A stretch of 21,896 nucleotides of DNA, from the IMG/VR virus record IMGVR_UViG_3300022934_000231, positions 1 to 21,896 of that record. One strand, 5' to 3'. The notes under the pieces were generated by a model, which did not search any database, was not told the DNA's origin, and saw only the letters and a program-made list of their open reading frames with translations. Below are positions 1-17,687 of the stretch, one piece after another (within the stretch, counting starts at the first letter, position 1; each line of letters begins with the position of its first letter). A program made the position numbers and the translations under genes. The stretch is from a virus.

Positions 1-1544
1 TCCGCGGCCCGTGCTTCTTCCATCAAGCCCGCATTTAAATCAGCTATAATTTTTGCAGCTTTGTCTACTTGTGCCGCGGTAACGGCGACGGGGTTTCCGT
101 CTTCATCCGTTGTTCTAAGCACTTTACTTGCAAGGTCTGCGGCTTTCTCGTTCACTTGCATTAACCGTTGTTCCAACAAAAGTTGGGTTGACGCACCTTC
201 CAACTTTGCGGCTTCTCGCATTAAGTTTGGATCGCCTGACCTAGCCATAATTTCAATCATAGATGACAACGCGTTCATGTTTTGCGCAACAGACCTTCTG
301 ACGGTCGGTCCCACTCGCTCATTGCCAATGACATTTTGAAGCAACATTCCCAAGCCCTTGCTGCGAGCAGCAACTGCGGGCAGTCTTTCGCCAAAATCAA
401 CACCCATTTCATCCGCTAATTTTACAATTGCAGGGTATTTATCCATTATGTTTTCAATGGCAATTTCAGGGTTTTCGCTAACTTCCGTGAGGAAAGTTAC
501 GATTTCAGGTCCAACCTGTTTAATCCGACCTTCTGTAGTGATCCCTTGAACAGCGTCTTTTACGCTCCGCGAAGCGAGTTGCGCCAATTGTCCAATGCGT
601 AGCGTCGGGTTCACAATACCCGCACCTAACTCTGCGCTTAAACGAGCAAATTCGTTACCCGGTGCTGCTTCTTCTACCAATCCACCGGCTAAGGCAGCAC
701 TCAAAACAGAGGTGCCCTCTATTGCAGAAGTTGCCGCGGGCATTGTCTGCATTGATTGAAACATCTTTTCAAGGGCCGTGGTCGAAGGAGCGTAAGAATA
801 GAATGTTGGCAAAGACGTACCCGCTTTCTTACTCATGTCGCGAGTAAGGTTGGTCATCATCAAGTTTGCGTTCACAGGTAATTTGGATATAGCCTGCTGC
901 ATTTGCCCTACGGGGGCCAAACCTGCACCGGTTGTCCGCCCGGCTTCGTAAAATCCTCTTTCCAAAGGAGGTTTATCCGGAAAAAATTGACTTGTTATTT
1001 CATCGGCAACCAAGTAGGAGCCGGCGCCGGCTGCAAGCATCAACGGAATTGACGCGCCACCTGTAAATGGAACAGCTGCAACGCCCATGCCGAGGGCCAA
1101 AGCAGGAGGAGCTTCCCGTAGAGCACCTTGCACAAAAGCTCTTGGTCCACCAATCAAAGGCTGACCGGTAAGTTCAGAAATGATCTCTAAATCTTCTTTT
1201 TGTGCGCGCAAAGCATTATAATCTACTTGCGCGCGGCCCGCGATTTCTTGTGCAATCTCGCGCACAGAATAACCCGCTTCACGAGCGCCTGAAACGTCAA
1301 AATCCACAAGCTCTGGAACTAAACGCTCAGAGGCCGCAATAGTAGGCCCCAGCTGAACAGTAGAAACATCGCGGCCCATCAAATCTGCAATGATGTCTGC
1401 GTCTGACGTTCTACGGCCCATTAAATCTTCGTAGTTTACCCCTGCGCGTTTTGCTAACTCTTGAGCAATTTCTGCGTCGCTGTATCCGGCCTCGCGAGCG
1501 GCCCCGAGTTGAAAACCACTTAAATCTACATTCGGATCAGCCAT
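1..1544 (-). CDS. Large internal virion protein, 3' end beyond the window
   Basis: I translated this frame from ATG at 1544 to base 1: 514 codons with no stop, so the C-terminus lies outside the window. An AGGGGG ribosome site 5 bases upstream overlaps the stop of the preceding gene and supports the start. Residues 16-38 and 87-109 are a tandem duplication (AREAGYS..EIAQE.A.RA.V.Y) 71 residues apart. Residues about 145-180 are hydrophobic and rich in Ala and Gly and could enter a membrane. The rest is helical and rich in Ala, Glu, Leu and Met. No catalytic motif, such as that of a lytic transglycosylase, is visible in the part present. Position after two other Ala/Gln-rich proteins suggests a DNA-ejection protein in the style of T7 gp15/gp16. 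That role is inferred from context; the existence of the gene is secure. Confidence 0.85.
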   Translation of the reverse strand, partial: MADPNVDLSGFQLGAAREAGYSDAEIAQELAKRAGVNYEDLMGRRTSDADIIADLMGRDVSTVQLGPTIAASERLVPELVDFDVSGAREAGYSVREIAQEIAGRAQVDYNALRAQKEDLEIISELTGQPLIGGPRAFVQGALREAPPALALGMGVAAVPFTGGASIPLMLAAGAGSYLVADEITSQFFPDKPPLERGFYEAGRTTGAGLAPVGQMQQAISKLPVNANLMMTNLTRDMSKKAGTSLPTFYSYAPSTTALEKMFQSMQTMPAATSAIEGTSVLSAALAGGLVEEAAPGNEFARLSAELGAGIVNPTLRIGQLAQLASRSVKDAVQGITTEGRIKQVGPEIVTFLTEVSENPEIAIENIMDKYPAIVKLADEMGVDFGERLPAVAARSKGLGMLLQNVIGNERVGPTVRRSVAQNMNALSSMIEIMARSGDPNLMREAAKLEGASTQLLLEQRLMQVNEKAADLASKVLRTTDEDGNPVAVTAAQVDKAAKIIADLNAGLMEEARAA

Positions 1545-1549
1545 GTTTG

Positions 1550-1555
1550 CCCCCT
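1550..1555 (-). promoter_or_regulatory. Ribosome binding site AGGGGG for the truncated last gene
   Basis: On the minus strand the stop of the upstream gene runs straight into this site (TAGGGGG), followed by CAAAC and the ATG at 1544. The purine run and 5-base spacing fix the start of the partial gene. Confidence 0.6.
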
Positions 1556-4049
1556 AGAAGTCTGAAAGTGGTTTGCGGCCATCTTTCTTCAAGAACCGAT
1601 TAATGCCTAACAACAAAGACTCATATGATTGTATCATAGCTTTACTTTGCTCAATAGCGTTTTCGGCTTTCTGTCTTTCTGAGAATGAGCCAATTGTTTT
1701 CAAATCGGCCTGCGCAAGATCAAGCTGTTGCTTATAGAAATCCACAGTCGCTTGAACTGCGGCAGCAGCTGCGCTAGGAGATTCCGTAAATGCAGTAGTT
1801 TTCGGTAATATATTAGCAAATTGGTTCACAGCTTCTTGCGAACGGCCCGCTGTCATATCGCGGAAGGCAACTTTGGCGTTTTCGTTCAAGCGTTCCACTT
1901 GTTTAATAGCATCTTGAACTTCAGACGCAGGAGCACCTAACATAAAGATACCCGCACCTTTGTTGACTAAATTACCAAAAAAGGCTCGTGTACCAAAGGC
2001 TTTGCCACCGATTTGTTCAAAGGGCAGGTTGCTTGCTAACATCGCTTGTTCTTCTGCGCTCATGTCTGGCACACTAATTTGTGTGGGCAAACCTAATATG
2101 GCTCTTTTTTGTTCGGATTCCATGACTAAGTTTGGCAAGTCAGGCGTGACGTTTGACCCCGGCTTGGGTTGGCCCGCTTCAACAATAGCCGCTTGTATTT
2201 TTGCGGTTGTTGTAGGGTCTGTTTTGCCTGCCGCGTACTGATTCATTACGTCTACATCGGTCAACAGATCATAATCACTGCCGGTTATTGAAATACGCTT
2301 AACACCGGGCGTATCCATTAGTGTTTTTTCTTCAGGAGAGCCTGCGTACACAACTTCTATGCTGCCGTCTGGCAGCTGATACTGTACGCTCGTTGTGGAA
2401 GCTTCGTCAGCCAAACGCTCTTCTTTCATACGCGCTGTTTGAGCTTTGTATTCATCAATAATTTGCTGTTCTGTACGATAATCTTGGTCGTATTGTACTC
2501 TCAGTTGATCCAGAGCCAAGGCTTGATCTGCACGAAGCGCAGCGTCTGCTTGGAAGGCATTCGCAATGTCGTTTTGTACTTTTGCAACCTGACGATTAAT
2601 TGCGTTGTCGTCCAGCTGCATCTGTAAAAGCTCTGTGCGAAGTGTGGACTCAAAGTCTTGACCGTCCAGCTGTAGCTTTTCTTGCAATGCGCGGTTAAGT
2701 GCGTTTTGTGTTGCAGTGAATGCGCGCTGACTGTCTGTCGCAATGCGGTCAAGCGTTGCGTTATAAGAGGCCAAGGCTTGGCTTTGTTCCAGACCTTTGT
2801 CCATCTTCGCAATGTCATAAATGTTCGCTTGTTTCATTTCTTTCAAGCGATTGTTAATTTGCGCGTCTGCGTTTATCTTCGCTAATTCCTTTTGCAACTT
2901 ACCGCGCAATTCTATAGCGGCCTGAGTTTCATTGCCTTGTAGTTTTACAAGTGCTTTTTGAAGCTCTTCAGAATTTTTTTGCATTGTTGTCGCATGCGAT
3001 TGAGCGTCATCTTGCAAAGTAATGTCGTGCTTAAACTTATTAGTTTGTATCGTCAGTTCTTGCGCAAACTGGTTTTGTTGTTTTTGCAGTTCAAGGGCAC
3101 GTTGTTGCGCGGTTTCAAAGGCGCCTTCAGCCGAAGTTAGCGCGCTCAACGCCATTTGCTTTTCTTCAGCGGACTGCGCGCGCTTCAATGCCTCTACTTC
3201 TCGCGCCGACTGGCCCAAGTTTCCAAAGACGTTAGACTGCTGCAAGCCGCCCATAATGCGTTCCGCCGCGCTCATTGGCTGCGCAGTAGGCGCACCCGCT
3301 GCGAGAGCCGCGTTCGCTAAATCAAAGAAAAACTGTGACTGGCTCAAGTCGCGCGCCCGGTCAATTTCTGCTTGTTGGTCAGTTCCGCCAAGAATGTCTT
3401 GGCGCATTTTCAGGCGCTGTTGATACATCTGTTCTAACGACGGATCGCCGCCTGTCTGTAGGTGAACTGGTCCGCCTTGGCTAAAATTTGCGGGTGGTGT
3501 GTTTCCCGCCCCCATCATCATTAGCTGACCAACACCCTGACCCATCTCATTTTCCATCGATGCATCCGCAATTTCCCGCATCATAGAGCCAATGCCGCTG
3601 TCAATCGCACCCTCTTCGGTCATCATAATGGTCGGCTGCACCATGGCCAAAACGCTTTCAGGAGTTTTCTGTGCATCCGCTTCGCCAACATATTGCGCAA
3701 GCTCCGCGTACCGCGATTCGAGAGGCGCCTCATTGCCGCGCAATGCGTTAATCATGCTCACGACGTCGTCGGCAGCATCAATTCCACCCATCATCTTATT
3801 GATGTAATCGCGGCCCTCGGCTTCCATTCCGCCTTCAACTTCCATCAGAATTTGTTCTTCAGGAACGGGGTTTGCCATCGGTGCGGGGGCCGCGGGCATC
3901 ATATCTTGAGGCATAGGCTGCGCAGGACCGCCTGCTTGACGAAACAAAGGACGCTGCATAACTGCGCCGCCGCCCATGTATTTTTCGGCCATGTCGGGGT
4001 CTATTTTACGCTGCACATATTCAGGAAGTGCTTTAAAACCTTCGTTCAT
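1554..4049 (-). CDS. Internal virion-type protein, Met-rich head and long coiled coil
   Basis: 831 residues. The start ATG at 4049 overlaps the upstream stop by one base (TAATG). Residues 1-210 are rich in Met, Gly, Pro and Ala, with motifs such as ALPEYVQRKI, GGGAVMQRPLFRQ and PESVLAMVQP that I recall from marine phage virion proteins. Residues about 220-560 are dense in Gln, Ala, Glu, Lys and Leu with few prolines, which predicts a long helical coiled coil. Residues 560-831 are mixed, with a further helical stretch near the end. There is no signal peptide or enzyme motif. With its two large neighbours it probably forms the internal, ejected protein set of a podovirus-like particle. A tape-measure role is an alternative if the tail is longer than assumed. 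Function is inferred. Confidence 0.9.
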   Translation of the reverse strand: MNEGFKALPEYVQRKIDPDMAEKYMGGGAVMQRPLFRQAGGPAQPMPQDMMPAAPAPMANPVPEEQILMEVEGGMEAEGRDYINKMMGGIDAADDVVSMINALRGNEAPLESRYAELAQYVGEADAQKTPESVLAMVQPTIMMTEEGAIDSGIGSMMREIADASMENEMGQGVGQLMMMGAGNTPPANFSQGGPVHLQTGGDPSLEQMYQQRLKMRQDILGGTDQQAEIDRARDLSQSQFFFDLANAALAAGAPTAQPMSAAERIMGGLQQSNVFGNLGQSAREVEALKRAQSAEEKQMALSALTSAEGAFETAQQRALELQKQQNQFAQELTIQTNKFKHDITLQDDAQSHATTMQKNSEELQKALVKLQGNETQAAIELRGKLQKELAKINADAQINNRLKEMKQANIYDIAKMDKGLEQSQALASYNATLDRIATDSQRAFTATQNALNRALQEKLQLDGQDFESTLRTELLQMQLDDNAINRQVAKVQNDIANAFQADAALRADQALALDQLRVQYDQDYRTEQQIIDEYKAQTARMKEERLADEASTTSVQYQLPDGSIEVVYAGSPEEKTLMDTPGVKRISITGSDYDLLTDVDVMNQYAAGKTDPTTTAKIQAAIVEAGQPKPGSNVTPDLPNLVMESEQKRAILGLPTQISVPDMSAEEQAMLASNLPFEQIGGKAFGTRAFFGNLVNKGAGIFMLGAPASEVQDAIKQVERLNENAKVAFRDMTAGRSQEAVNQFANILPKTTAFTESPSAAAAAVQATVDFYKQQLDLAQADLKTIGSFSERQKAENAIEQSKAMIQSYESLLLGINRFLKKDGRKPLSDF

Positions 4050-6643
4050 TATAAAATCCCCGCTCTTTGTGCGCCCGTCGCTGCGGACAGTCCAGCAATG
4101 CCAAGGCTTGCCGCTTGCATGAATGGTGACGCGTTGCTCCCTGACGTCATGGTTTGTGTGGATTGTGACGTCGGAATACCCGCATAGACATCAGACAAGA
4201 ACCCAAGTTGTTGGAATGGCTGCTGATACCGCTGTACATTGCTCATGCGCTGGGCGTCGAGCACTGCTTGATCCTGTGCCTGCAACATACCACCGGTTTG
4301 CATCAGTGAGCTTATGTCGCGGTTGCGCATGGCTTGTTCAAGTTCGCCAAGACCGGCTTGCTGAATGCCCATTTGCGCTTGCTGCGCGCCAAGGTTGCCA
4401 AACTGCTGACCCGCTTGGAAGCCCATCCGACCGATGTCCATGCCCATTTGACCTGCGGCTTGACCCGCTTGTAGAGCCTGACTTGTGCCTTGTAGACCAA
4501 GTGCTCCCGCTTGTTGCGCGGCAGTCATGCCCAATTGAGCTTGTTGAGCGGCGTTTGCGGCTTGCTGTTGACGCGCACTCAAACCAAGTTGTCCCATTTG
4601 ACCAGCGGTTGTACCCATCAAAGAACCAAGACCTTGTGACAGGGCACCGGCTTGTTGCGCACCCGCTTGGCGAATACGTGAGGCGTCCAAGCCCATTTGA
4701 CCCGCCTGTGTCGTCAATTGACCCGCAAGCTGCTGTGCATTCATGCCTGTTTGTGCCGCAAGCTGTTCGACGTTCATACCCGTGGACGCAAGCGCCTGCT
4801 GGTTTGCCGCTTGGAATTGAGCTTGGCTCATTCCCAAGTTTGCTGCCGCTTGCGCGGTGTTTGCCGCCATTTGTTCGGTCTGTAGGCCCATTTGTCCAGC
4901 GGCTTGAGCAAAGTTGCCTGCAATTTGTTGTGCTTGCATACCTGTTTGCGCAGCCAGCTGTTCAATACTTAAACCCGTATCGGCAATCGCTTTTGCGTTT
5001 GCGGCTTCGAACTCCCGTGCGCTAAGGCCAAGTTGCGCGCCTTGCAATGCACCTGTTTGAGCAAGCTGTTCCGCGCCTAAACCTAACTGACCTGCGGCTT
5101 GTGCCGCTTGTGCAGAAGTTCCTGCGCCCGCTTGACCCAATTGACCTGTAGCCTGTGCCGCCGCGATTTGACGTTGACGCGCTTGTTCAAAGGCGCTTTG
5201 CGCACGTTGTCCGGCACTTTCAAAGCCCGCTTGACGCATTTGCGCCGCGGTGCGACCCTGTTGTTCAAGAACATTGCGCCCAAGCTCTGCTTCAGCAACC
5301 GCTTGACGGCTTCCACCAAAAGCACCTGACTGAACGGCTTGTGCTCTCACGTTTTGCGCTTGAATGTCGCCTTGTCGTTGAATGTCACGAAGAGCTTGCT
5401 GTACGGCAACGTCTTCAAACGGATTCATATACTCATATGCAGAGTATGGGTTAAATTCAGCAGCGGCACCACTCAGTCCCGCAATACCCGCTTGCGCGGT
5501 GCCCATTCCGAACTCCGCTGCGCGACCTAATTGCTCTTGCGACCTTGCCGTAGATTGACGGGCAAGAGCCGCCGCTTGATCGGCACCCATTTGACCACGT
5601 TGAGCCTCACCGACACCTGCCGCAGAGGCTCCGGTCAAACGACCTTCCAGAGGAGCTTGTAAGCCACGAGCACGAGCCGTAACATCTGCCGCAACGCCGC
5701 GAGCCGCGTCGCCTGCGCCGTAAAGCGCGTCAGTGGCACGACCTGTGGAGCCGCGAGCGCGATCTACCGCCTGCCCCATTTGCGCCTGCCCACGTTGGAC
5801 TTGTTGGCCCATTAGTCTTTCTGCACCAGCTAAACCAGCGGCCTGCCGACCCAACACGTTCTGACCGCCCATACGAGCTTGCGCGGCAATATTTTGTGCA
5901 CCTCGGCCAATCTGACCTAATTGCCGGCCTGTCATTGCGGCCTGCATTGCAGCTTGAGAAGACGCTCCACGTAAATCCCGCATTGCACTTTGTGTGCCTT
6001 GCCGCGCGAAACCTAAGCCTTGACCCGCAATGTTTTGAGCGATTTGTGCTTCACGCAGCCCACCAAAAGTAGACGCCTGCAAACCCGGCGTTGCTCCCGC
6101 CGCAGCGTTTTGAATACCTTGACCAAACTGCCCCGCAATATTTTGCGCCTGTGCGCCGGCCCCACGGATGTCCGCCATACCTTGACGACCAAACTGGTTT
6201 GCGACGTTGAGGCCCTGCATCGTGGCCTCAATACCTTGGCCCGTGGTGTACTGACCCTGCTGAACACCCTGCAAACCGCCTTGCAAGAACGGTTGATAAG
6301 AACCCACGCCTCTTGCCGCAAGATTAGCCGCGTCCATTTGGTTTTGAGACAAGCCTGCAACCTGATAGTCGGGCGGCGCAAACATGGCGTTTTGGCTGAC
6401 TTGTCCAATGTCTTCCGCAGAGTAAGTTGTTCCGGGGGCGTAACCTTCTTCGCCTTCTACACCTTGCGCTGGTATTGACAAACGTTGAGCAATTTCTTCA
6501 TCAGTCAGACCTTGGCCGCGCAGGTTTTGAACCTGCTGACCAAACATTTGGTTGCGCACAAGCCCTTGTACGTCGCCTAATAGACCTAAACGATACGCCT
6601 CAATAGCGGGGTCTTGGCGGGTAATCGTTGTTTGGACGCTCAT
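4049..6643 (-). CDS. Ala/Gln/Gly-rich repeat protein, probable internal virion protein
   Basis: 864 residues. The ATG at 6643 overlaps the upstream TGA by four bases (ATGA). The N-terminal third carries DPAIEAYRLGLLGDVQ (11-26) and GLTDEEIAQRL (45-55). A central segment around NPYSAYEYMNPFEDVAVQQ (398-416) and QSGAFGGSRQAVAEAELGR (438-456) resembles a conserved block I recall from marine podovirus internal proteins. Residues 521-751 are a regular helical repeat described separately. The C-terminus ends in a small Ala/Gly-rich tail (SPFMQAASLGIAGLSAATG). Cysteine is absent and aromatic residues are few. The composition fits an extended all-helical rod packed inside the capsid or tail and passed to the host at ejection. 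No enzymatic motif is seen, and the role is inferred from composition and gene order. Confidence 0.9.
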   Translation of the reverse strand: MSVQTTITRQDPAIEAYRLGLLGDVQGLVRNQMFGQQVQNLRGQGLTDEEIAQRLSIPAQGVEGEEGYAPGTTYSAEDIGQVSQNAMFAPPDYQVAGLSQNQMDAANLAARGVGSYQPFLQGGLQGVQQGQYTTGQGIEATMQGLNVANQFGRQGMADIRGAGAQAQNIAGQFGQGIQNAAAGATPGLQASTFGGLREAQIAQNIAGQGLGFARQGTQSAMRDLRGASSQAAMQAAMTGRQLGQIGRGAQNIAAQARMGGQNVLGRQAAGLAGAERLMGQQVQRGQAQMGQAVDRARGSTGRATDALYGAGDAARGVAADVTARARGLQAPLEGRLTGASAAGVGEAQRGQMGADQAAALARQSTARSQEQLGRAAEFGMGTAQAGIAGLSGAAAEFNPYSAYEYMNPFEDVAVQQALRDIQRQGDIQAQNVRAQAVQSGAFGGSRQAVAEAELGRNVLEQQGRTAAQMRQAGFESAGQRAQSAFEQARQRQIAAAQATGQLGQAGAGTSAQAAQAAGQLGLGAEQLAQTGALQGAQLGLSAREFEAANAKAIADTGLSIEQLAAQTGMQAQQIAGNFAQAAGQMGLQTEQMAANTAQAAANLGMSQAQFQAANQQALASTGMNVEQLAAQTGMNAQQLAGQLTTQAGQMGLDASRIRQAGAQQAGALSQGLGSLMGTTAGQMGQLGLSARQQQAANAAQQAQLGMTAAQQAGALGLQGTSQALQAGQAAGQMGMDIGRMGFQAGQQFGNLGAQQAQMGIQQAGLGELEQAMRNRDISSLMQTGGMLQAQDQAVLDAQRMSNVQRYQQPFQQLGFLSDVYAGIPTSQSTQTMTSGSNASPFMQAASLGIAGLSAATGAQRAGIL
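4391..5083 (-). repeat. 18/11-residue helical repeat array
   Basis: Residues 521-751 of the 864-residue protein divide without remainder into units of 18 or 11 residues, nearly all beginning with Gly-Leu or Gly-Met. The order of lengths is 18, 18, 11, 18, 18, 18, 11, 18, 18, 18, 18, 11, 18, 18. Examples are GLQTEQMAANTAQAAANL (18) and GMNVEQLAAQT (11). Both lengths are whole numbers of helical turns (5 and 3), so the Gly-Leu/Met pairs would recur on one face of a continuous helix. Confidence 0.85.
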
Positions 6644-8112
6644 GCTACCGCTCCCCCTTCAAAGGCCCTCATTAAGTCGTACATCTTTTTCACCCCTTGC
6701 TTGCGGCTGCCATTGCCCAAGCCGCGTACCGCGCGGGCCGTCATTACGAATTCGCCGTCCGATAGCATAGCAGGAACGTCATCAGATGTTTCTGTGCCGG
6801 GGCCAGAAATAAAGCCGTCGCGCCGCGGGAAATCCGACATCGACATTTCACCGCCCTGCGCAGCATATTGTGGACGCAAGTAGTTTTGGTAAATGTATCC
6901 ACCGTCGTCGGTCTGTGTTGGACGGCTTACAGGAGACATCGTCGTTGGCATGTTGTAGCCCGCAAACACACTGTATTTGCCGGGGTTTTGATCGTAAAGC
7001 TCTTGCGAACTAATGCCGAATGGCGATTCGCCAATCTCTGCTTCAGGTGTCTCAAACCCGCCTGCCGCACCGAGGACCGCGGTTCCCGCAAGGGCCAGAG
7101 GGCCATAACGCGCAATCAAGCCGGGCTGCTGTGACTTGACCGTTTCCATGGCAATTTCAAACGCCTTGCTTGGCATTGTTTTGGCCATTTCGGTCAAAGC
7201 AGGCGTGGTGCTTACAAGCTTGCTTGCCTCAGTTGCCATTTCAGTTGGGTTCAACACATTGCGATTTGGATCAAATACATTGCTGTAAATATCTTGTGCA
7301 GTGTCTAAGCTGCGGGACAAAATACCTTGTGAGTCAGGGGCAGGCTGTGGCGTGGTTCCGGGCGGCGAAGCGGGCGCGTCAACAGAAGCTTGCCCCTGTA
7401 ATCCGCTTGTTAATTCGGTAGTGTTTGTTACGGGCGAAGCGTCCCCTGTGAAAAATGATTCTACTTTAGGATTCAGTGCAAACCGCTCTCCCGACACACC
7501 TAAAGCAGACTGTTTGAACGCATCGCTTGTCAAGCTACCTGTTTGGAATGCAGAAGTCACACCGCCCATCAAGCCGCCAAACGCTGCTGATTTTAGAGCA
7601 TCCTTAAAGCTACCACCCTGCACCAAGGTTGTAATGCCCGCGCCCAACGCGCCGGACGCCACCGTGCCAAGGCCCGGAAACAGCATGTTCAAGCCAATCG
7701 GCACAATAATCGGAGCGATCTTTTTGAAAACGTTCTTGATGCCGCGCACAAGTTTCTTCAAGAAAAACTCAGGCTGACCCGTCATCGGGTTAATGCTGTT
7801 TGCCTCAGAGCCAACAACATAACGGTCCATGTCTACATTAGAACGGTCAAATGCATTCGCTAATTCGCCCGCGAGCCGCGGGTTCTCTTCCAGTAACTCT
7901 GGTGAAACAGCAATCTCGCCAGTCCGCATGTGAACAAGCTGGTCATCTCCGTTACGGCCCATCATGGCCATACGGTTGCCAACGTCCACCATAGAATTAA
8001 TGCCCCGCGGGGCACCAAACGCTAGTACGTTGTCTTCTATTTCGTCCATGTTTGACGTGAGGAAGGACGCCAAACCGCCAGCGGGCATTCTTTTCAGAGA
8101 GTCATATTCCAT
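6640..8112 (-). CDS. Virion protein with Gly-zipper-like hydrophobic core, first of the internal block
   Basis: 490 residues. It starts at ATG 8112 after the largest gap in the window (58 bases), with AGGTTGA upstream as a weak ribosome site. The N-terminal motif HMRTGEIAVSPELLEENP (61-78) and the C-terminal motif VPAMLSDGEFVMTARAVRG (446-464) followed by NGSRKQGVKKMYDLM (467-481) are hallmarks of a family I recall from marine phages. Residues 118-132 are basic (FLKKLVRGIKNVFKK) and precede a hydrophobic, Gly-rich stretch at 133-165 and another at about 176-190, which could insert into a membrane. The last bases overlap the next gene (ATGA). An internal virion protein helping DNA cross the host envelope is the best guess; no enzyme motif is seen. 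Confidence 0.9.
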   Translation of the reverse strand: MEYDSLKRMPAGGLASFLTSNMDEIEDNVLAFGAPRGINSMVDVGNRMAMMGRNGDDQLVHMRTGEIAVSPELLEENPRLAGELANAFDRSNVDMDRYVVGSEANSINPMTGQPEFFLKKLVRGIKNVFKKIAPIIVPIGLNMLFPGLGTVASGALGAGITTLVQGGSFKDALKSAAFGGLMGGVTSAFQTGSLTSDAFKQSALGVSGERFALNPKVESFFTGDASPVTNTTELTSGLQGQASVDAPASPPGTTPQPAPDSQGILSRSLDTAQDIYSNVFDPNRNVLNPTEMATEASKLVSTTPALTEMAKTMPSKAFEIAMETVKSQQPGLIARYGPLALAGTAVLGAAGGFETPEAEIGESPFGISSQELYDQNPGKYSVFAGYNMPTTMSPVSRPTQTDDGGYIYQNYLRPQYAAQGGEMSMSDFPRRDGFISGPGTETSDDVPAMLSDGEFVMTARAVRGLGNGSRKQGVKKMYDLMRAFEGGAVA

Positions 8113-8411: not shown

Positions 8412-8708
8412 CTATGTTGTTACCACGGCCACAGACCCAACGGCACCAGTGCCAGACGATCCACGAGCATGAGGAGTGTTTGCTTGGGTAATCTTAACAT
8501 ACCCGCCATGATTAAAGATAGTCCCAAGCTCCAATCCAAAGTCATCCGTTTGCAAGTTCGTAAACACACCAAAAGTATTTCTACCTTCCCCGGGATTTTG
8601 AACCTGCTGCACATAAATAGAAAACGCGCGAACCACTTCAGAAATATACTGCTGATTGTACTCTTTAGGCGCGTTTGGGAAATAAGGTATGGCAAGATTG
8701 CGTGACAT
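8412..8708 (-). CDS. Small conserved tail-associated protein
   Basis: 98 residues. The start overlaps the stop of the nozzle gene (TAATG). The N-terminal half (NLAIPYFPNAPKEYNQQY, then VVRAFSIYVQQVQNPGEG) and GTIFNHGGYVKI match a small protein I recall beside nozzle genes in marine phages, where it lacks a known role. The C-terminal residues GSSGTGAVGSVAVVTT look like one copy of the 22-residue module repeated in the protein at 16644-17687, and the last residues resemble the end of the 101-residue protein at 19829-20134. It is probably a structural accessory of the tail or of a fibre base. The function is inferred only. Confidence 0.88.
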   Translation of the reverse strand: MSRNLAIPYFPNAPKEYNQQYISEVVRAFSIYVQQVQNPGEGRNTFGVFTNLQTDDFGLELGTIFNHGGYVKITQANTPHARGSSGTGAVGSVAVVTT

Positions 8709-10627
8709 TATCGTTTCCCGTCTGGACGTATGTCAATGCGGGGTGAGCCTAAACGCCATCCCGTTCCAACCGCATCACTATCTATTTTAATAGCAACAGA
8801 ACGGCCCCGTAAGCGAACGTGCGCATCTTGCGTAAATTGCTCAACGGGCACCGAAGCCGTTTTTTCTACCGCCTTACTATTAGTTTGCAGATATGCGCCG
8901 CCCGGAAAGTTTCTTGTTTTCAAAGTAAAATTAGCGGTAGGAGTTTCTGCGGTGGAGTCCCTGAAGGTCAGATCAGGTATCAAACGTCTTACAAACGAAA
9001 ACTGTTCTCCTTCTCCAATATCAAATTGACTGGACTCAATGTAAGACGTGATTGCCGTAGCAGGATTAGTGCTGCCATCATCAAACCCACTCTCGTGTGC
9101 GTACAAGTAGCCATCGTTGCTTGCTGCCGTTGGATTTTCTTCAACACCACGATCAACCCATGCGGTACGGTTTAACGTGCCATAATACCAAACGTTCTGA
9201 AGGTAATTAAAGACAACATAACGATCATTGTTTTGTGAACCTGAAGATGGGTAAAACCACCATATTTCGGAGAAGGATGAGTTAACCGAAGCAAAGCACT
9301 TTTCAGCCTGCGCGGTATTGAAATCAGAGAAAACATAATCGCGAACAGAGCAGGGCAGCGTCTGTACTCCGCCGTTGTATACATAGAACTCATTCTTACC
9401 CATCCAGTAAACAGCGTCTTGCACCGCAGCTACTGACAAAGGACTACGAATAGTAATGTTCTCTGAAATCATGTTGATGCCAAACGTAAACGGTGGCCCG
9501 ATATACTGCATGGCATGCAAAGATATATCGGTAAAGACTAGGATTTGCTGCCTTGTTTCAACTGCCGTTACGATTTTAGAACCAGAACCTATGCGGAGAT
9601 CACCTGCTGTATTTTCTGGCGTGGGTCGCCAGTCTGCAACATTTTCCTGATCAGAAAACCGTATTAACAGCGGGTCTTGTACACCAATGTTATCTAACGG
9701 GTCGCATCCGAAAGCAATGACATGGCGGTCTACGTCCGACACAATAATCTGAGCAGCTATTGTTGGGGCTAAATCGGCACCCGCAAGGTCACTGATTGCA
9801 GTTGCGCGGTTGTTGTTCAAACCCACAGAAGAATCCCAGTAGTAAATACCACCGTTAACAACGTTAATGATTAAGTCTTCACCAAAGTTATCGTGCGTCC
9901 AAATGCGAAGTTGGTCTGTAATCAAGTCAACAGTCGCAGCCGAACCCCACGCACCACGGCTCCATGCACCCGCGCCCCAACCTGTTCCAGTGACAGACGT
10001 ATCCAAACCGACATTGATTTGATACTCTCCCACAGTTGCAGTGCCGCCACTTCCTGTATCTGAAGAATTAGCCGTCACAGGGGTAGGTGTGTACTGACCG
10101 TCAATGGTGATTTGACGAAGAGTAGCTACCGCACGAGCGGTAATTGTATACGTTGAAGTGTCTGTTACTTCTTCGATCTGATATTCTTGGTTAAGAACAT
10201 CAGCCGTGATGTTGCCGCCCAAACTAACTGCATCACTGAAAGTAACAAAGTCGCCAGAAACCGCGCCATGTGAAGGGTCGTTTACTGTAATCGTAGACGA
10301 TCCATCAGTTGCAGAAAAGGTTACATCGCCCGCTCCTGTTGTGGAGCGTATTGGAGTACAGTCATAATACTCCTGACCCGACTCAACGTAATACTTTAGA
10401 TGGGTGCCAACACCTAAGTATCCAGACAGACTAAGGGTTCTCCAAGGATGCAGCGCACGACATGACCCCAAGAAAGAGGACGTACCCAACTTTGTCCAAC
10501 CGCCAATTTTTTCTGGAAAGCCCTGCCTAAAACGAACCTTGTCACAATCAAACCATCCGCCTTCATTGGTATACGAAGTCGTCTCTCTGTTGATCCCCGG
10601 TTGAAACTGCAACTTTTGTAAAGGCAT
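8708..10627 (-). CDS. Tail nozzle / P22 gp10-like DNA-stabilisation protein
   Basis: 639 residues, with GAGG 8 bases upstream of the ATG at 10627. The N-terminus (LQKLQFQPGINRETTSYTNE, then GGWFDCDKVRFRQGFPEKIG) and the later blocks (VIAFGCDPL, RFSDQENVADWRP, GSGSKIVTAVETRQQILVFT, SPLSVAAVQDAVYWMG) are typical of the beta-propeller tail hub family that includes P22 gp10 and podovirus nozzles. That family closes the tail tube below the adaptor and holds DNA in the filled head. Residues about 95-235 look like an inserted beta-rich region, ending in a Trp repeat, WGAGAWSRGAWG (217-228). The gene follows the 717-residue tail protein by 12 bases and overlaps the next gene by one. Family assignment is by recall of motifs, and I am fairly sure of it. 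Confidence 0.88.
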   Translation of the reverse strand: MPLQKLQFQPGINRETTSYTNEGGWFDCDKVRFRQGFPEKIGGWTKLGTSSFLGSCRALHPWRTLSLSGYLGVGTHLKYYVESGQEYYDCTPIRSTTGAGDVTFSATDGSSTITVNDPSHGAVSGDFVTFSDAVSLGGNITADVLNQEYQIEEVTDTSTYTITARAVATLRQITIDGQYTPTPVTANSSDTGSGGTATVGEYQINVGLDTSVTGTGWGAGAWSRGAWGSAATVDLITDQLRIWTHDNFGEDLIINVVNGGIYYWDSSVGLNNNRATAISDLAGADLAPTIAAQIIVSDVDRHVIAFGCDPLDNIGVQDPLLIRFSDQENVADWRPTPENTAGDLRIGSGSKIVTAVETRQQILVFTDISLHAMQYIGPPFTFGINMISENITIRSPLSVAAVQDAVYWMGKNEFYVYNGGVQTLPCSVRDYVFSDFNTAQAEKCFASVNSSFSEIWWFYPSSGSQNNDRYVVFNYLQNVWYYGTLNRTAWVDRGVEENPTAASNDGYLYAHESGFDDGSTNPATAITSYIESSQFDIGEGEQFSFVRRLIPDLTFRDSTAETPTANFTLKTRNFPGGAYLQTNSKAVEKTASVPVEQFTQDAHVRLRGRSVAIKIDSDAVGTGWRLGSPRIDIRPDGKR

Positions 10628-12793: not shown

Positions 12794-13104
12794 TATTCTT
12801 CTCCCTCAATCAAAACCCACTGCCATGTGTTGGTATCTAAATAATACGACTCACCGTCATTAGGCATAGGTGGAATAAATACGTCTCGTTGTGCGTCATA
12901 CTCACCACCTATTGTAGCAAAGTTTACACGAAAACTCCCGTTATAACTTGTCTGAACCCAACGACCACCAAAAGTTTCTTCGCAAAATGTTTTACCCAAA
13001 CTCTCCTGTTCAACGTCGTCATCATCCAAGAGAACAGCATTGTTCACCACAATAACCTGCAATATGCGGTTTGTCGTATCATCAAGTTGTGCAAAATGTG
13101 CCAT
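12793..13104 (-). CDS. Small partner protein of the second adhesin
   Basis: 103 residues, with the start overlapping the adhesin stop (TAATG). The N-terminus MAHFAQLDDTTNRILQVIVV, then SLGKTFCEETFGGRWVQTSY and NFATIGGEYD, is a small-protein family I recall from T4-like and other marine phages near tail fibres. The C-terminal PPMPNDGESYYLDTNTWQW resembles the end of the 150-residue protein at 13973-14425 (PP.P..DG..Y....T..W), which also follows a glycine-rich adhesin. Position suggests a dedicated folding or capping partner of the adhesin, analogous to tail-fibre assembly proteins. That role is inferred; the gene itself is secure. Confidence 0.88.
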   Translation of the reverse strand: MAHFAQLDDTTNRILQVIVVNNAVLLDDDDVEQESLGKTFCEETFGGRWVQTSYNGSFRVNFATIGGEYDAQRDVFIPPMPNDGESYYLDTNTWQWVLIEGEE

Positions 13105-13973
13105 TAGTAAACAATCGTCCCTGAACCTGTGAACGTATAGATGTAGAAACTACCGTCCGTTGTTTCCGTTGGAGAGCCTGTTGTAGAAGAGGCTTGACGT
13201 GTTGAGCGAAGGATAACGACACCTGACCCGCCAGACGAACCGTTATTTAAGTTTCCGCCACCGCCGCCACCGCCGCCCGTGTTGGCCGTTCCCGCAGTGG
13301 AAGGAGTCGTACCACTTGTACCCCCGCCGCCATCGCCGCCGCCACCTGAGCCGCCGCTGCCCGTGCCTTGAAGACCTGCGCCACCGCCACCGCCGCCTGC
13401 GCGGGTGACTGCACTTCCTGTAATTGAAGACGATAGACCATCGCCACCATTTCCTGCATCAACCGCAGTAGCATTTCCACCAGCAGCACTTGCACCGCCC
13501 CCGCCGCCGCCACGGCCAGCGTTACCGTCAGTATGTGCGTCACCACCATCGTTACCTTGGCCAACAGTGCCTGATCCACCGACACCTGCTCCCGCAGAAC
13601 CCGCAGAGCCGCCGCCACCTGAGCCGCCATCCCCGCCGGGCGAAGTTCTCACATTTGAACCTAAACCGCCACCTGTCGCAGTGATCGTCGTGATCCCAGT
13701 GCCTGAAATACTACTGTTAGAGCCGTTGGTATCTATACCACCACCTGCACCCACTGTAATAGTAAATGTCGTTCCACCGGGCCAAGTCTGGTCGCTTGCA
13801 GTTAAATAACCACCTGCACCGCCGCCACCATGACCTTGTGTGGATGATGCTGTACCGCCGCCGCCACCACCGCCAGCAATCACTAAATATTCAACAATAG
13901 CTTCATTAACAGGCCAGTCCGCAGAATTTTGCATCTGCGTGGCTAAGTCCCATACTCCTTGGTAATTAGGCAT
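13104..13973 (-). CDS. Glycine-rich tail adhesin (second)
   Basis: 289 residues from the ATG at 13973, which overlaps the upstream stop (TAATG); an in-frame ATG 15 bases earlier lies inside the preceding gene and is less likely. Residues 1-21 hold a short motif (GVWDLATQMQNSADWP). A beta strand (VEYLVIAG) leads into a long glycine-rich domain, about 34-245, of Gly runs broken by Ser, Ala, Asn and Thr. The end, SGVVILRSTRQ followed by SFYIYTFTGSGTIVY, is a conserved closing block of this protein type. Such domains form bundles of polyglycine II helices in distal adhesins such as Salmonella phage S16 gp38, where variable loops bind the receptor. By analogy this is a receptor-binding tip. The coding strand is extremely G-rich here. 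Confidence 0.88.
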   Translation of the reverse strand: MPNYQGVWDLATQMQNSADWPVNEAIVEYLVIAGGGGGGGTASSTQGHGGGGAGGYLTASDQTWPGGTTFTITVGAGGGIDTNGSNSSISGTGITTITATGGGLGSNVRTSPGGDGGSGGGGSAGSAGAGVGGSGTVGQGNDGGDAHTDGNAGRGGGGGGASAAGGNATAVDAGNGGDGLSSSITGSAVTRAGGGGGGAGLQGTGSGGSGGGGDGGGGTSGTTPSTAGTANTGGGGGGGGNLNNGSSGGSGVVILRSTRQASSTTGSPTETTDGSFYIYTFTGSGTIVY

Positions 13974-14425
13974 TATGTCTGCTCCCAAGTTTCTGTTTCG
14001 TCATTCCAGACATAACCATCTCCGGGGCGGGGCGAAGGTGGGTCAAAAGAACATGTCGCTTCGTTAAACGTCCAAGAGGCGTATCCGTAGTTTTCGGCAA
14101 AATCATTTTTAACGGCGTTCTGCTTTTCAAGTTTTTCTTCGTCTGTCATATCAAGAACATGCCAGACATCTTTGTAAACGCCATCCACAATTTTGTATTC
14201 AAGCCCATTGTGGTCAAAAGCTAGTGCGATATTTCCGCCTTTAGTGCTATCGAACTTTTCGTAAGCTCCTAATTTAGGTGGCTCAGAACGTACAAACTCC
14301 ATCCACCCTGAAGGCGGCCCAGAAGAAAAATCATGTTCAGGGTAAAGCTGCCGAACATTGCTTTCAAAATGCGGGTGGTCAATAAAGACGTTGTTCTCAT
14401 CAACCTTGATATACAGTTTTGCCAT
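13973..14425 (-). CDS. Small partner protein of the first adhesin
   Basis: 150 residues, overlapping the stop of the upstream adhesin and the start of the next (both TAATG). It opens MAKLYIKVDENNVFIDHPHF, continues with LYPEHDF and GWMEFVRSEPP, and has a charged helix around DMTDEEKLEKQNAVKNDFAE. The C-terminal PPSPRPGDGYVWNDETETW matches in pattern the end of the 103-residue protein at 12793-13104. I recall relatives of this protein next to fibre genes in marine phages. An assembly or chaperone function for the glycine-rich protein encoded just upstream is a reasonable inference but not shown. There is no membrane segment or enzyme motif. Confidence 0.88.
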   Translation of the reverse strand: MAKLYIKVDENNVFIDHPHFESNVRQLYPEHDFSSGPPSGWMEFVRSEPPKLGAYEKFDSTKGGNIALAFDHNGLEYKIVDGVYKDVWHVLDMTDEEKLEKQNAVKNDFAENYGYASWTFNEATCSFDPPSPRPGDGYVWNDETETWEQT

Positions 14426-15507
14426 TATACATCCGCCGTATTAGTTGAAGGAAAAGAACGAGTTGAACCCGGATATATAATCCTAACCGCGCCCCCCGCA
14501 CCATTATCGCTACTAGACGCACCGCCACCGCCGTAAGCACCACCACTACCACTAGTTGTATCTGCGCCGCCAGAACCACCATTACCTAAGTTCCCAGAGC
14601 TTACCGCAGCACCACTGGTGCCTTCGCCTTGCAGTCCAACGCCACCACCACCTGCTTGGTATCCACCCCCGCCTGCACCGCCAGAGCCTGCACCAGAACT
14701 GCCCGGATAAGCTGAAAGACCTTGGCCACCTGCGCCGGAGTAACCACCTGCACCGCCGCCGCCACCTTGTGCGGGATTGGCTGTACCACCGTCACCACCT
14801 GCACCGCCGCCATCACCCGTAAATGATCCACCGCTACCACCGGGTCGCCCCGCAGAGGAGCCGCCTTTACCGCCACCGCCGCCATTACCCGCTACGGTAG
14901 CGGTACTTACAAAATAAGAAGTTCCGCCAGCATTTCCGTCCGCATCAAAACCAGATGATCCGCTACCACCAGAGCCAACAACTACAGTGTAGCTGTTCCC
15001 AGCAGTTACGCTGTAGTTGTTTTTATAGCCTAAACCACCACCTGCACCACCCGCAGCATCATTCGTATTTGCCGTACCGCCCTCACCGCCACCACCAACG
15101 GCGACAATAGAAACAGAAGTAACACCTGTTGGGGCCGTCCAACTATAAGAACCGGGCGTGGTGTATTCATCTTGGCCTTGAACAATAGGTGTCACGCTAT
15201 TTGACGCGGCACTTCTTTCACTTGTGCCGTACACATTTTTAGCGACGACACTAATGGTATACGCGGTATTCGTCGTAAGGCCCGTGACTGTAATAGGTGA
15301 GGCCGAACCCGTAGCACCAATGGAATTTCCTGAGCTATCTTTAGCTGTTGCAATATATTCCGTAATTGCACTCGCACCTGTGTCGGTGGGTGCCGTAAAA
15401 GTGACAGACGCACTTGTTCCTGAAACTACACTTGCAGTTCCAATTGTAGGCGCATCTGGAGCCTTGATGCCATCCTGACCAATAAAGCCACCTTTACCAT
15501 ACGACAT
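14425..15507 (-). CDS. Fibronectin III plus glycine-rich tail adhesin (first)
   Basis: 360 residues, with AGGAGT 6 bases upstream of the ATG at 15507. Residues 17-109 form a fibronectin type III domain (APDAPTIGTASVVSGTSASV, ITEYIATAKDSSG, TVTGLTTNTAYTISVVAKN). Residues 113-135 start the adhesin part (YTTPGSYSWTAPTGVTSVSI), followed by a glycine-rich domain to about 340. The end GAVRIIYPGSTRSFPSTN is a conserved closing block. The layout resembles gp38-like distal adhesins with polyglycine II helices, here carried on an FN3 spacer. It probably contacts the host surface. It differs from the second adhesin (289 residues) by the FN3 domain and by its C-terminus. Confidence 0.9.
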   Translation of the reverse strand: MSYGKGGFIGQDGIKAPDAPTIGTASVVSGTSASVTFTAPTDTGASAITEYIATAKDSSGNSIGATGSASPITVTGLTTNTAYTISVVAKNVYGTSERSAASNSVTPIVQGQDEYTTPGSYSWTAPTGVTSVSIVAVGGGGEGGTANTNDAAGGAGGGLGYKNNYSVTAGNSYTVVVGSGGSGSSGFDADGNAGGTSYFVSTATVAGNGGGGGKGGSSAGRPGGSGGSFTGDGGGAGGDGGTANPAQGGGGGAGGYSGAGGQGLSAYPGSSGAGSGGAGGGGYQAGGGGVGLQGEGTSGAAVSSGNLGNGGSGGADTTSGSGGAYGGGGASSSDNGAGGAVRIIYPGSTRSFPSTNTADV

Positions 15508-16643: not shown

Positions 16644-17687
16644 CTATGCCGCTATTTCAGTCCAATCAGTATCTGGATCAGGATCAATTTCAGTATACTC
16701 TGTTGAGGGGTTTGGTGCAACGTTTGTCCAAGTTGTGCTGCTGCCGGGGTCTATTTCTGTGTAACTTGTAGAAGGAGAGGGATTAATCTTATCCCAGTCG
16801 GTTGCTGGTTCTGGTATAATTTTACTCCAGACAAGAACCTGACCGACTGCGCCAGATGCCGAAACACCTAACACATTCACTACTGCATCGCCAGTAGCGA
16901 TAGATTGACCAACCTGCCCAACCGCACTCAAACCTGTCTGCGGTACAATCGCCTGACCTTTGCCTTCTGCCGTGCCAACGGCCGCTGTAGCCTCAAGTCC
17001 TGTCAAAGTCACAGAGGTGTTTTGGATTACAGCCGCTTGCCCAACTTCACCATCGCCTTCAACACCCGTCAAACTGACTACAGCGTTGATCTTAATGCTT
17101 ACAGAGCCTACCTCACCCGTCCCCTCAACACCTGTAGGTGTAAAGATCATATCGCCATTTACAGCGACAGAACCGACTTGGCCTGTACCTTCGACCCCCG
17201 TTATGGTAGGAGCAGCACCTGCTTTGACAGTAACAGAACCAACACTGCCAACAGAATCCAAACCCGTCACTGGAACATCTGTCGCACCAGATATGGTGAC
17301 AGAACCAATTTCACCAGTTCCTTCCACGCCCGTTAGGTTGACAACAATATCGGTTCTTGTTCGAGCCTCTACCGTCCCAACCTGACCTGTAGCCGACAGA
17401 ACAAACTGCTTACCGCCCCAAACGGAATCGCCCCAAGCGTTATCACTCCATGAAGAAACATTGGTTTTGAGCGGTTCTGCCCTTACACCGGGCTTTGCGG
17501 TTACACCCTCTACGCCACCTGTTGCATGAATACCTGTAACAGAAACAGATACATTCTCTGTTGCGTTTACAGTGACAGACCCTACCGAACCAGTACCTTC
17601 AACGCCAGTGACCGTCACGGATTCATCTACAACGATTAAGCCCGTGCTTCCTATCGGCTCTGAGGATATGGGAAAGCCGCTTATCAT
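16644..17687 (-). CDS. Tandem-repeat tail protein (22-residue and 11-residue repeats)
   Basis: 347 residues. AGGGG, which overlaps the upstream stop, lies 6 bases before the ATG at 17687. Copies of a motif like LTGVEGTGEVGSVTV occur from residue 25 on and fall into strict 22-residue register from about 116 to 287. Residues 78-91 hold a Trp motif, SSWSDNAWGDSVWG. The C-terminal 56 residues are five copies of an 11-residue unit of the type P.P.T.W..I. followed by a final Ala. Repeats of this style are known to me from marine phage tail proteins. The Gly/Val/Thr pattern suggests stacked beta strands, possibly a fibrous trimer. It probably builds a spacer or fibre of the tail. Repeat number is likely to vary between relatives. 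Confidence 0.88.
   Translation of the reverse strand: MISGFPISSEPIGSTGLIVVDESVTVTGVEGTGSVGSVTVNATENVSVSVTGIHATGGVEGVTAKPGVRAEPLKTNVSSWSDNAWGDSVWGGKQFVLSATGQVGTVEARTRTDIVVNLTGVEGTGEIGSVTISGATDVPVTGLDSVGSVGSVTVKAGAAPTITGVEGTGQVGSVAVNGDMIFTPTGVEGTGEVGSVSIKINAVVSLTGVEGDGEVGQAAVIQNTSVTLTGLEATAAVGTAEGKGQAIVPQTGLSAVGQVGQSIATGDAVVNVLGVSASGAVGQVLVWSKIIPEPATDWDKINPSPSTSYTEIDPGSSTTWTNVAPNPSTEYTEIDPDPDTDWTEIAA
16650..16814 (-). repeat. 11-residue protein repeat, five copies
   Basis: Residues 292-346 of the repeat protein are five exact 11-residue units: PEPATDWDKIN, PSPSTSYTEID, PGSSTTWTNVA, PNPSTEYTEID and PDPDTDWTEIA. Pro-1, Thr-5, an aromatic at 7 and Ile/Val at 10 are constant. Confidence 0.88.
16827..17342 (-). 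repeat. 22-residue protein repeat array
   Basis: Eight consecutive units in exact 66-base register encode residues about 116-287 of the repeat protein. The key Gly falls at residues 120, 142, 164, 186, 208, 230, 252 and 274. Core pattern: TG[VL]EGTG.VGSV.V. Degenerate copies precede the array. DNA identity between copies is lower than protein identity, so the array is not freshly duplicated. Confidence 0.85.

Follow-up and report, generated by a model that had tools for sequence, protein, structure and literature searches.

A selected, helix-phased array of 18- and 11-residue units in a viral DNA-ejection-type protein

A real, selected and helix-phased array of short units is present in a DNA-ejection-type protein of 864 amino acids. 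The gene is found at positions 4049..6643, minus strand, of the window, i.e. the whole 21,896-nucleotide stretch of viral DNA that was analysed, and its assignment is based on the open reading frame, a family HMM, PHROG 4287 matches in relatives, and gene order. The array consists of twelve 18-residue and three 11-residue units (residues 509–757; 4373..5119, minus strand). It is situated between a conserved core of residues 397–502 (5138..5455, minus strand) and a conserved C-terminal part of residues 758–864 (4052..4372, minus strand), the latter common to the compact relatives L004–L006. The core encompasses the YMNP ... GAFGGSR helical hairpin; it is recognized by the family HMM and modelled with pLDDT >90 over much of its length. 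Residues 131–396 (5456..6253, minus strand) form a first variable helical region, which changes among relatives in length steps of 18, 36 or 54 residues.

Unit code and helical phase

The sequence-only reading had described residues 521–751 (4391..5083, minus strand) as 14 units of 18 or 11 residues, mostly led by Gly-Leu (GL) or Gly-Met (GM). The codon ends are correct, with residue 521 beginning at 5083 and residue 751 stopping at 4391, and the description is borne out: eleven 18s and three 11s account for the segment without remainder. Units start (length in brackets) at residues 521 (18), 539 (18), 557 (11), 568 (18), 586 (18), 604 (18), 622 (11), 633 (18), 651 (18), 669 (18), 687 (18), 705 (11), 716 (18) and 734 (18). 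GL or GM opens 13 of the 14, the exception being unit 669, which starts with SQ. The GL/GM parse with periods 11 and 18 has a score of 12; 1000 shuffles that kept the GL/GM count gave at most 5, and the best of any two periods from 5 to 30 gave at most 7 in 300 shuffles. The 18/11 register is also seen by self-comparison, where autocorrelation peaks at lag 65 (z 9.6), lag 18 (z 8.7), lag 11 (z 5.5) and lag 7 (z 4.0), and the top lags (65, 18, 47, 83, 36, 11, 54, 29 and 7) are all sums of 11s and 7s. The unit code is beyond chance.

The array proper is larger than 521–751, and its ends are set by the periodicity and by an exact gap of 249 residues relative to L004 and L005. A 65-residue higher period had been proposed as well, in the order 18+18+18+11. 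The period stands, as given by lag 65, but the clearest order is 18-11-18-18, which places super-units at residues 539–603 (4835..5029), 604–668 (4640..4834) and 687–751 (4391..4585), all on the minus strand, with one additional 18 preceding the third. Another 7-residue step is found at residues 752–758. This step, together with lags that sum 11s and 7s, leads to a reading of the 18-residue unit as 11+7. Tandem Repeats Finder detected no tandem array at the DNA level, and the unit copies are therefore old and diverged. Antisense to the array is a 300-codon open reading frame (4123–5025, plus strand), which is probably a by-product of codon and residue bias in the array.

That the units keep an alpha-helical phase, as had been suggested, is shown by analysis of residues 503–758. 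Ala/Gly residues peak exactly at 100 degrees per residue (normalised power 23.2) and polar residues peak there also (18.7), and in neither case was this equalled in 300 shuffles. On average, Ala/Gly residues point to 41 degrees and Gln/Asn/Glu/Asp residues to 197 degrees, i.e. opposite faces, with the Gln face at 190 degrees. Leu/Met/Ile/Phe residues show no 100-degree peak because they are divided between one stripe near 130 degrees and another near 285 degrees, which border the Ala/Gly and polar faces. It should be pointed out that any repeat of period 18 necessarily gives sharp lines at each multiple of 20 degrees, and the informative property is that the helical harmonic dominates; it is likewise dominant in the relatives L137 and L125, and L118 and L103 show other harmonics. 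Such a pattern is an alpha-helical signature and corresponds to a helix that packs along two seams. Residues 409–808 contain no proline. The 249-residue array has 1 Lys and 5 Arg, and its best 19-residue Kyte–Doolittle mean is 0.56. It is not hydrophobic, and the membrane-spanning tube that had been envisaged is therefore not supported.

Family members and gene order

Relatives were taken from viral contigs with an HMM of the core (residues 397–515, comprising YMNP..., GAFGGSRQ... and a long helix). The HMM matches at least 178 open reading frames, at least 153 of them distinct, and the proportions are not population estimates. Among the matches listed, many members are compact (247–393 amino acids) and have no array, some are 1239–1479 amino acids long with arrays of lag 11, 22, 33 or 66, and others use lags 18, 25 and 29. 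As many members have no array, the array is dispensable for basic function. Compact orthologues were located by gene order in the cultured phages DSL-LC04, HTVC027P, Ochrobactrum OH and MinM2. A search of named phages with the window protein as query gave no match, and the L011-derived core as query found Ochrobactrum OH only. A further set of long relatives, 855–1058 amino acids, has unrelated C-termini and no clear array; judged by length and C-terminus, these look like fusions to the product of the next gene, as do L010, L106, L112, L122 and similar members of about 870–1000 amino acids.

Comparison of the window with L001 over the array gives pN 0.069, pS 0.70 and omega ~0.04, an approximate value since dS is near saturation, and resembles that of the conserved C-terminus. 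The array is under strong purifying selection. Length differences are of 18 and 54 residues between the window and L002, 36 between L001 and L002, and 54 and 54 between the window and L001; those between the window and L004 or L005 are of 249 residues, the whole array. Other pairs differ by 66 and 66 (L011/L012), 44 (L108/L109), 132 (L118/L115), and 66 and 110 (L102/L121) residues. At 3.6 residues per turn the 66-residue steps do not come out as whole turns; they do so only at the hendecad value, 3.67. The two interchangeable unit lengths proposed at the outset are conserved in relatives and altered by whole units only. In part, whole-unit length changes would be expected of any repeat; more remarkable is that arrays of unrelated sequence (the window, CRP-901 and a freshwater group) all have units close to whole turns in length. 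The idea that the two variable regions change strictly together was also considered, as the loss of 54 + 54 residues in L001 looked like a hairpin constraint, and was dropped since L002 lost 18 + 54.

The cultured Roseobacter phages CRP-901 and CRP-902 (OQ401623.1, L016, and OQ401624.1, L195) carry at the same locus a family member with an 18-residue array (WED25052.1 and WED25130.1). Their unit sequence is unrelated to that of the window and is charged (RFGAEDVMRGQFMEDRQA), and there are only 18s and no 11s. The two arrays differ by exactly one 18-residue unit. Both phages are cultured on the same host, Roseobacter sp. FZCC0083, and offer a natural experiment on a one-unit difference, and the syntenic L004 and L005, where the array is wholly absent, offer natural comparisons.

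The context of DNA ejection assumed by the sequence-only reading is supported by gene order and by profile matches in relatives. The cassette, all on the minus strand, begins with a P22-gp10-like head-closure/stabilization protein (8708..10627; PHROG 3287 and annotated homologues), followed by a 490-residue protein (6640..8112; profile match and gene order), the 864-residue protein and an 831-residue protein (1554..4049). A fourth cassette protein, incomplete at the window edge (3..1544), has the position of P22 gp16/DNA transfer protein, in keeping with the annotation of its DSL-LC04 equivalent. The order of gp10-like, 490-, 864- and 831-residue genes is kept with all four present in L001, L003–L006 and L015, and in L023 and L026 as far as detectable; it is also the P22 order (10 ... 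7, 20, 16). Of 52 family members, 28 match PHROG 4287 (‘DNA ejection protein’), and in several the match spans most of the protein (L018, 2e-40; L019, 2e-19; L015, 7e-9; L005, 3e-5). The gene sits in the ejection cassette after the gp10-like head-closure gene, as do the PHROG 4287 proteins of Ochrobactrum phage OH (p40), Synechococcus phage MinM2 and phage DSL-LC04, which differ in being compact (294–379 amino acids) and without an array. The window protein itself has no PHROG 4287 match at 0.001. Its membership would follow from relatives, such as L005, that share its N-terminus, core and C-terminus.

The 490-residue neighbour has at residues 416–468 a C-terminal motif, GPGTETSDDVPAMLSDGEFVMTARAVRG, that is common to many tape-measure proteins and is here found in an ejection cassette. 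A tape-measure identity of the 864-residue protein was rejected, as it has no tape-measure profile match; the neighbour shows nothing beyond the C-terminal motif.

Joints, conduits and alternative roles

Short-tailed phages must cross an envelope far thicker than the length of their own tail, and to our knowledge there is no agreed answer as to what sets how long their temporary conduit is. We regard the chances as evenly balanced that the 864-residue product serves DNA ejection in a marine short-tailed phage of P22-like gene order and that its array forms a section of the conduit. The best mechanism would be that of a phase-locked, jointed helical spacer, which joins its neighbours in the ejection conduit in a manner analogous to phiX174 H. 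A conserved protein of ~375 residues (N-terminus, GAFGGSR helical hairpin and C-terminal helix) may have gained the 249-residue array, made of 11-residue units, most with an extra heptad (11+7 = 18). Lengths of 7, 11 and 18 residues are close to 2, 3 and 5 helix turns, so that gain or loss of a unit barely shifts the helical phase, and thus the Ala/Gly face, the Gln-rich face and the pair of Leu/Met seams would be retained. After ejection, we infer, several copies pack side by side via the two seams, and together with neighbouring ejection proteins they would form a helical section, as stalk or channel, of the conduit across the envelope. The number of units would set the length of this section, and the Gly-Leu joints could make it flexible enough to pass the portal and to refold.

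The closest parallel is the phiX174 DNA pilot protein H, whose decameric helical tube has hendecads and then heptads and is lined by Gln (PMC7354561). The tube (residues 151–271) resembles the window array in that a single long helix combines 11-residue hendecads with 7-residue heptads, in its Gln/Asn-rich face, and in its DNA-delivery setting (PMC7354561); in the array these properties appear as lags of 7, 11 and 18 and as the Gln face at 190 degrees. However, phiX174 is a tailless ssDNA phage, and in H the hendecads and heptads are in separate blocks with no Gly-Leu joints, whereas in the window array 11 and 18 (11+7) alternate, the length is twice as great, and the structure is a monomer prediction. 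The likeness may be one of mechanism, and no homology is claimed. Within the partial literature covered, the phiX174 paper is the only one that pairs an ejection protein with hendecads.

Ejection proteins of T7 and P22 also make helical trans-envelope channels (PMC8954989; PMC11784390). The outer-membrane channel proteins P22 gp7 and T7 gp14 have the same place in the cassette and are mostly helical; they differ in being about 200–230 amino acids long and without arrays. Residues 373–495 show a weak fold match to T7 gp14 of the ejected channel (9jz0_0; 107 of 119 residues), with a Z of 7.1 (VIA) that is within helical-hairpin noise and a Foldseek E of 7.1; T7 gp14 is not listed among the fold matches of the L118 model. 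Homology to either protein by profile was rejected, the hhalign probability being <1 percent against both, and the family profile, run against PDB sequences, gave a single chance-level row. These failed comparisons, the absence of a PHROG 4287 match in the window protein and the many members without an array would count against the conduit.

The joints between units bear on whether the array is one helix. The AlphaFold monomer, from 52 sequences, is almost wholly helical and of low confidence (mean pLDDT 66.6, pTM 0.32), with predicted helices at residues 445–537, 542–555, 560–602, 607–623, 625–649, 654–670, 685–714 and 738–820. It is broken at 539, 557, 604, 622 and 651, where GL or GM is followed by S, N or D. 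Among 13 units, 9 have S/T/D/N at position 3 (p 7e-6) and 10 have a hydrophobic residue at position 7; the statistics treat units as independent, which duplicated units are not. This is the capping-box/hydrophobic-staple layout of a helix start. The breaks and this layout would count against a conduit helix and would be expected of a jointed chain of helix-turn-helix units, where each GL/GM is a turn, with Gly the C-cap, Leu/Met the hydrophobic staple and S/T/D/N the N-cap, and the array is a bundle or solenoid, in the virion or conduit, rather than a rod. A Pfam DprA winged-helix match at residues 616–644 (E 2e-6) might also favour such a chain. Yet the chain needs neither unit lengths of whole turns nor coherent faces, the same model bridges the joints at 568, 586 and 633, and the Gly is replaced in some units of relatives. 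In addition, the model of the hendecad relative L118 (pLDDT 60.5) has array helices of 53 and 71 residues that run through most of its GL joints. We consider the chain possible although rather unlikely. The joints may be either real turns or kinks able to straighten, and neither model is good enough to choose.

It is less likely still that the array is an internal scaffold or packing element, which organizes the protein core in the capsid as a spacer between portal and DNA and takes no part in a conduit. T7 ejection proteins do assemble as a core within the head before ejection (PMC11784390), and the arrays are variable and absent from many members; against this, the amide-rich face and the hendecad/heptad mix seem to resemble the phiX174 delivery tube. 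Replication slippage that expanded a low-complexity segment devoid of any specific role might account for the Ala/Gln/Gly-rich composition and for copy number that varies among relatives, but it appears highly improbable given the missing DNA-level array, the two-face helical pattern, and purifying selection (omega ~0.04, at near-saturated dS). Least credible is a DNA-binding array of helix-turn-helix units: the DprA_WH match and weak HTH matches point to it, but DprA_WH covers 29 of 61 profile positions and is found in 3 of 52 members, and the array has few basic residues.

Returning to the conduit section, countable phase-locked units raise the hypothesis of a natural ruler for conduit length, and the whole-block length changes of relatives suggest a modular, length-adjustable part of the machine for passage of DNA through the envelope. 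The code itself (11 plus an optional 7, with a small-residue face, an amide face and two hydrophobic seams) could serve as a template for the design of long helical barrels.

An array in the next gene and other proteins of the window

The L005 homologue of the 831-residue neighbour (7501–10542 in L005) has a strong array of 11-residue units (z 9.2 at lag 11 and 10.9 at lag 33), and the L005 homologue of the 864-residue protein has none. A weaker 11-residue array is found in the corresponding gene of L004, from 9125. Strong arrays occur in the gene under study in 23 of 119 cases, in the next gene in 2 of 119, and in both genes in none; the second of the next-gene cases (L154) could represent a split gene. 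The idea that arrays in the two genes are in general inversely related was rejected, as only L005 and, weakly, L004 support a shift. Tentatively, a wide family of short-tailed phages might build part of the conduit from a modular 7/11/18 helical code that evolves in length by whole turns, with the array in either of two neighbouring ejection proteins.

Other minus-strand genes of the window were noted. The 347-residue protein at 16644–17687 has GVEGTG.VGSV-like repeats and a short acidic/aromatic C-terminal repeat, and has no Pfam match. Two Gly-rich proteins (13104–13988 and 14425–15507), which both match Pfam Gly_rich_2 and of which the second also has an fn3 domain, are likely tail-tip or adhesin parts. 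Two SU10_adaptor proteins are encoded in the one genome (19182–19832 and 20134–20802), and these also fit a short-tailed phage.
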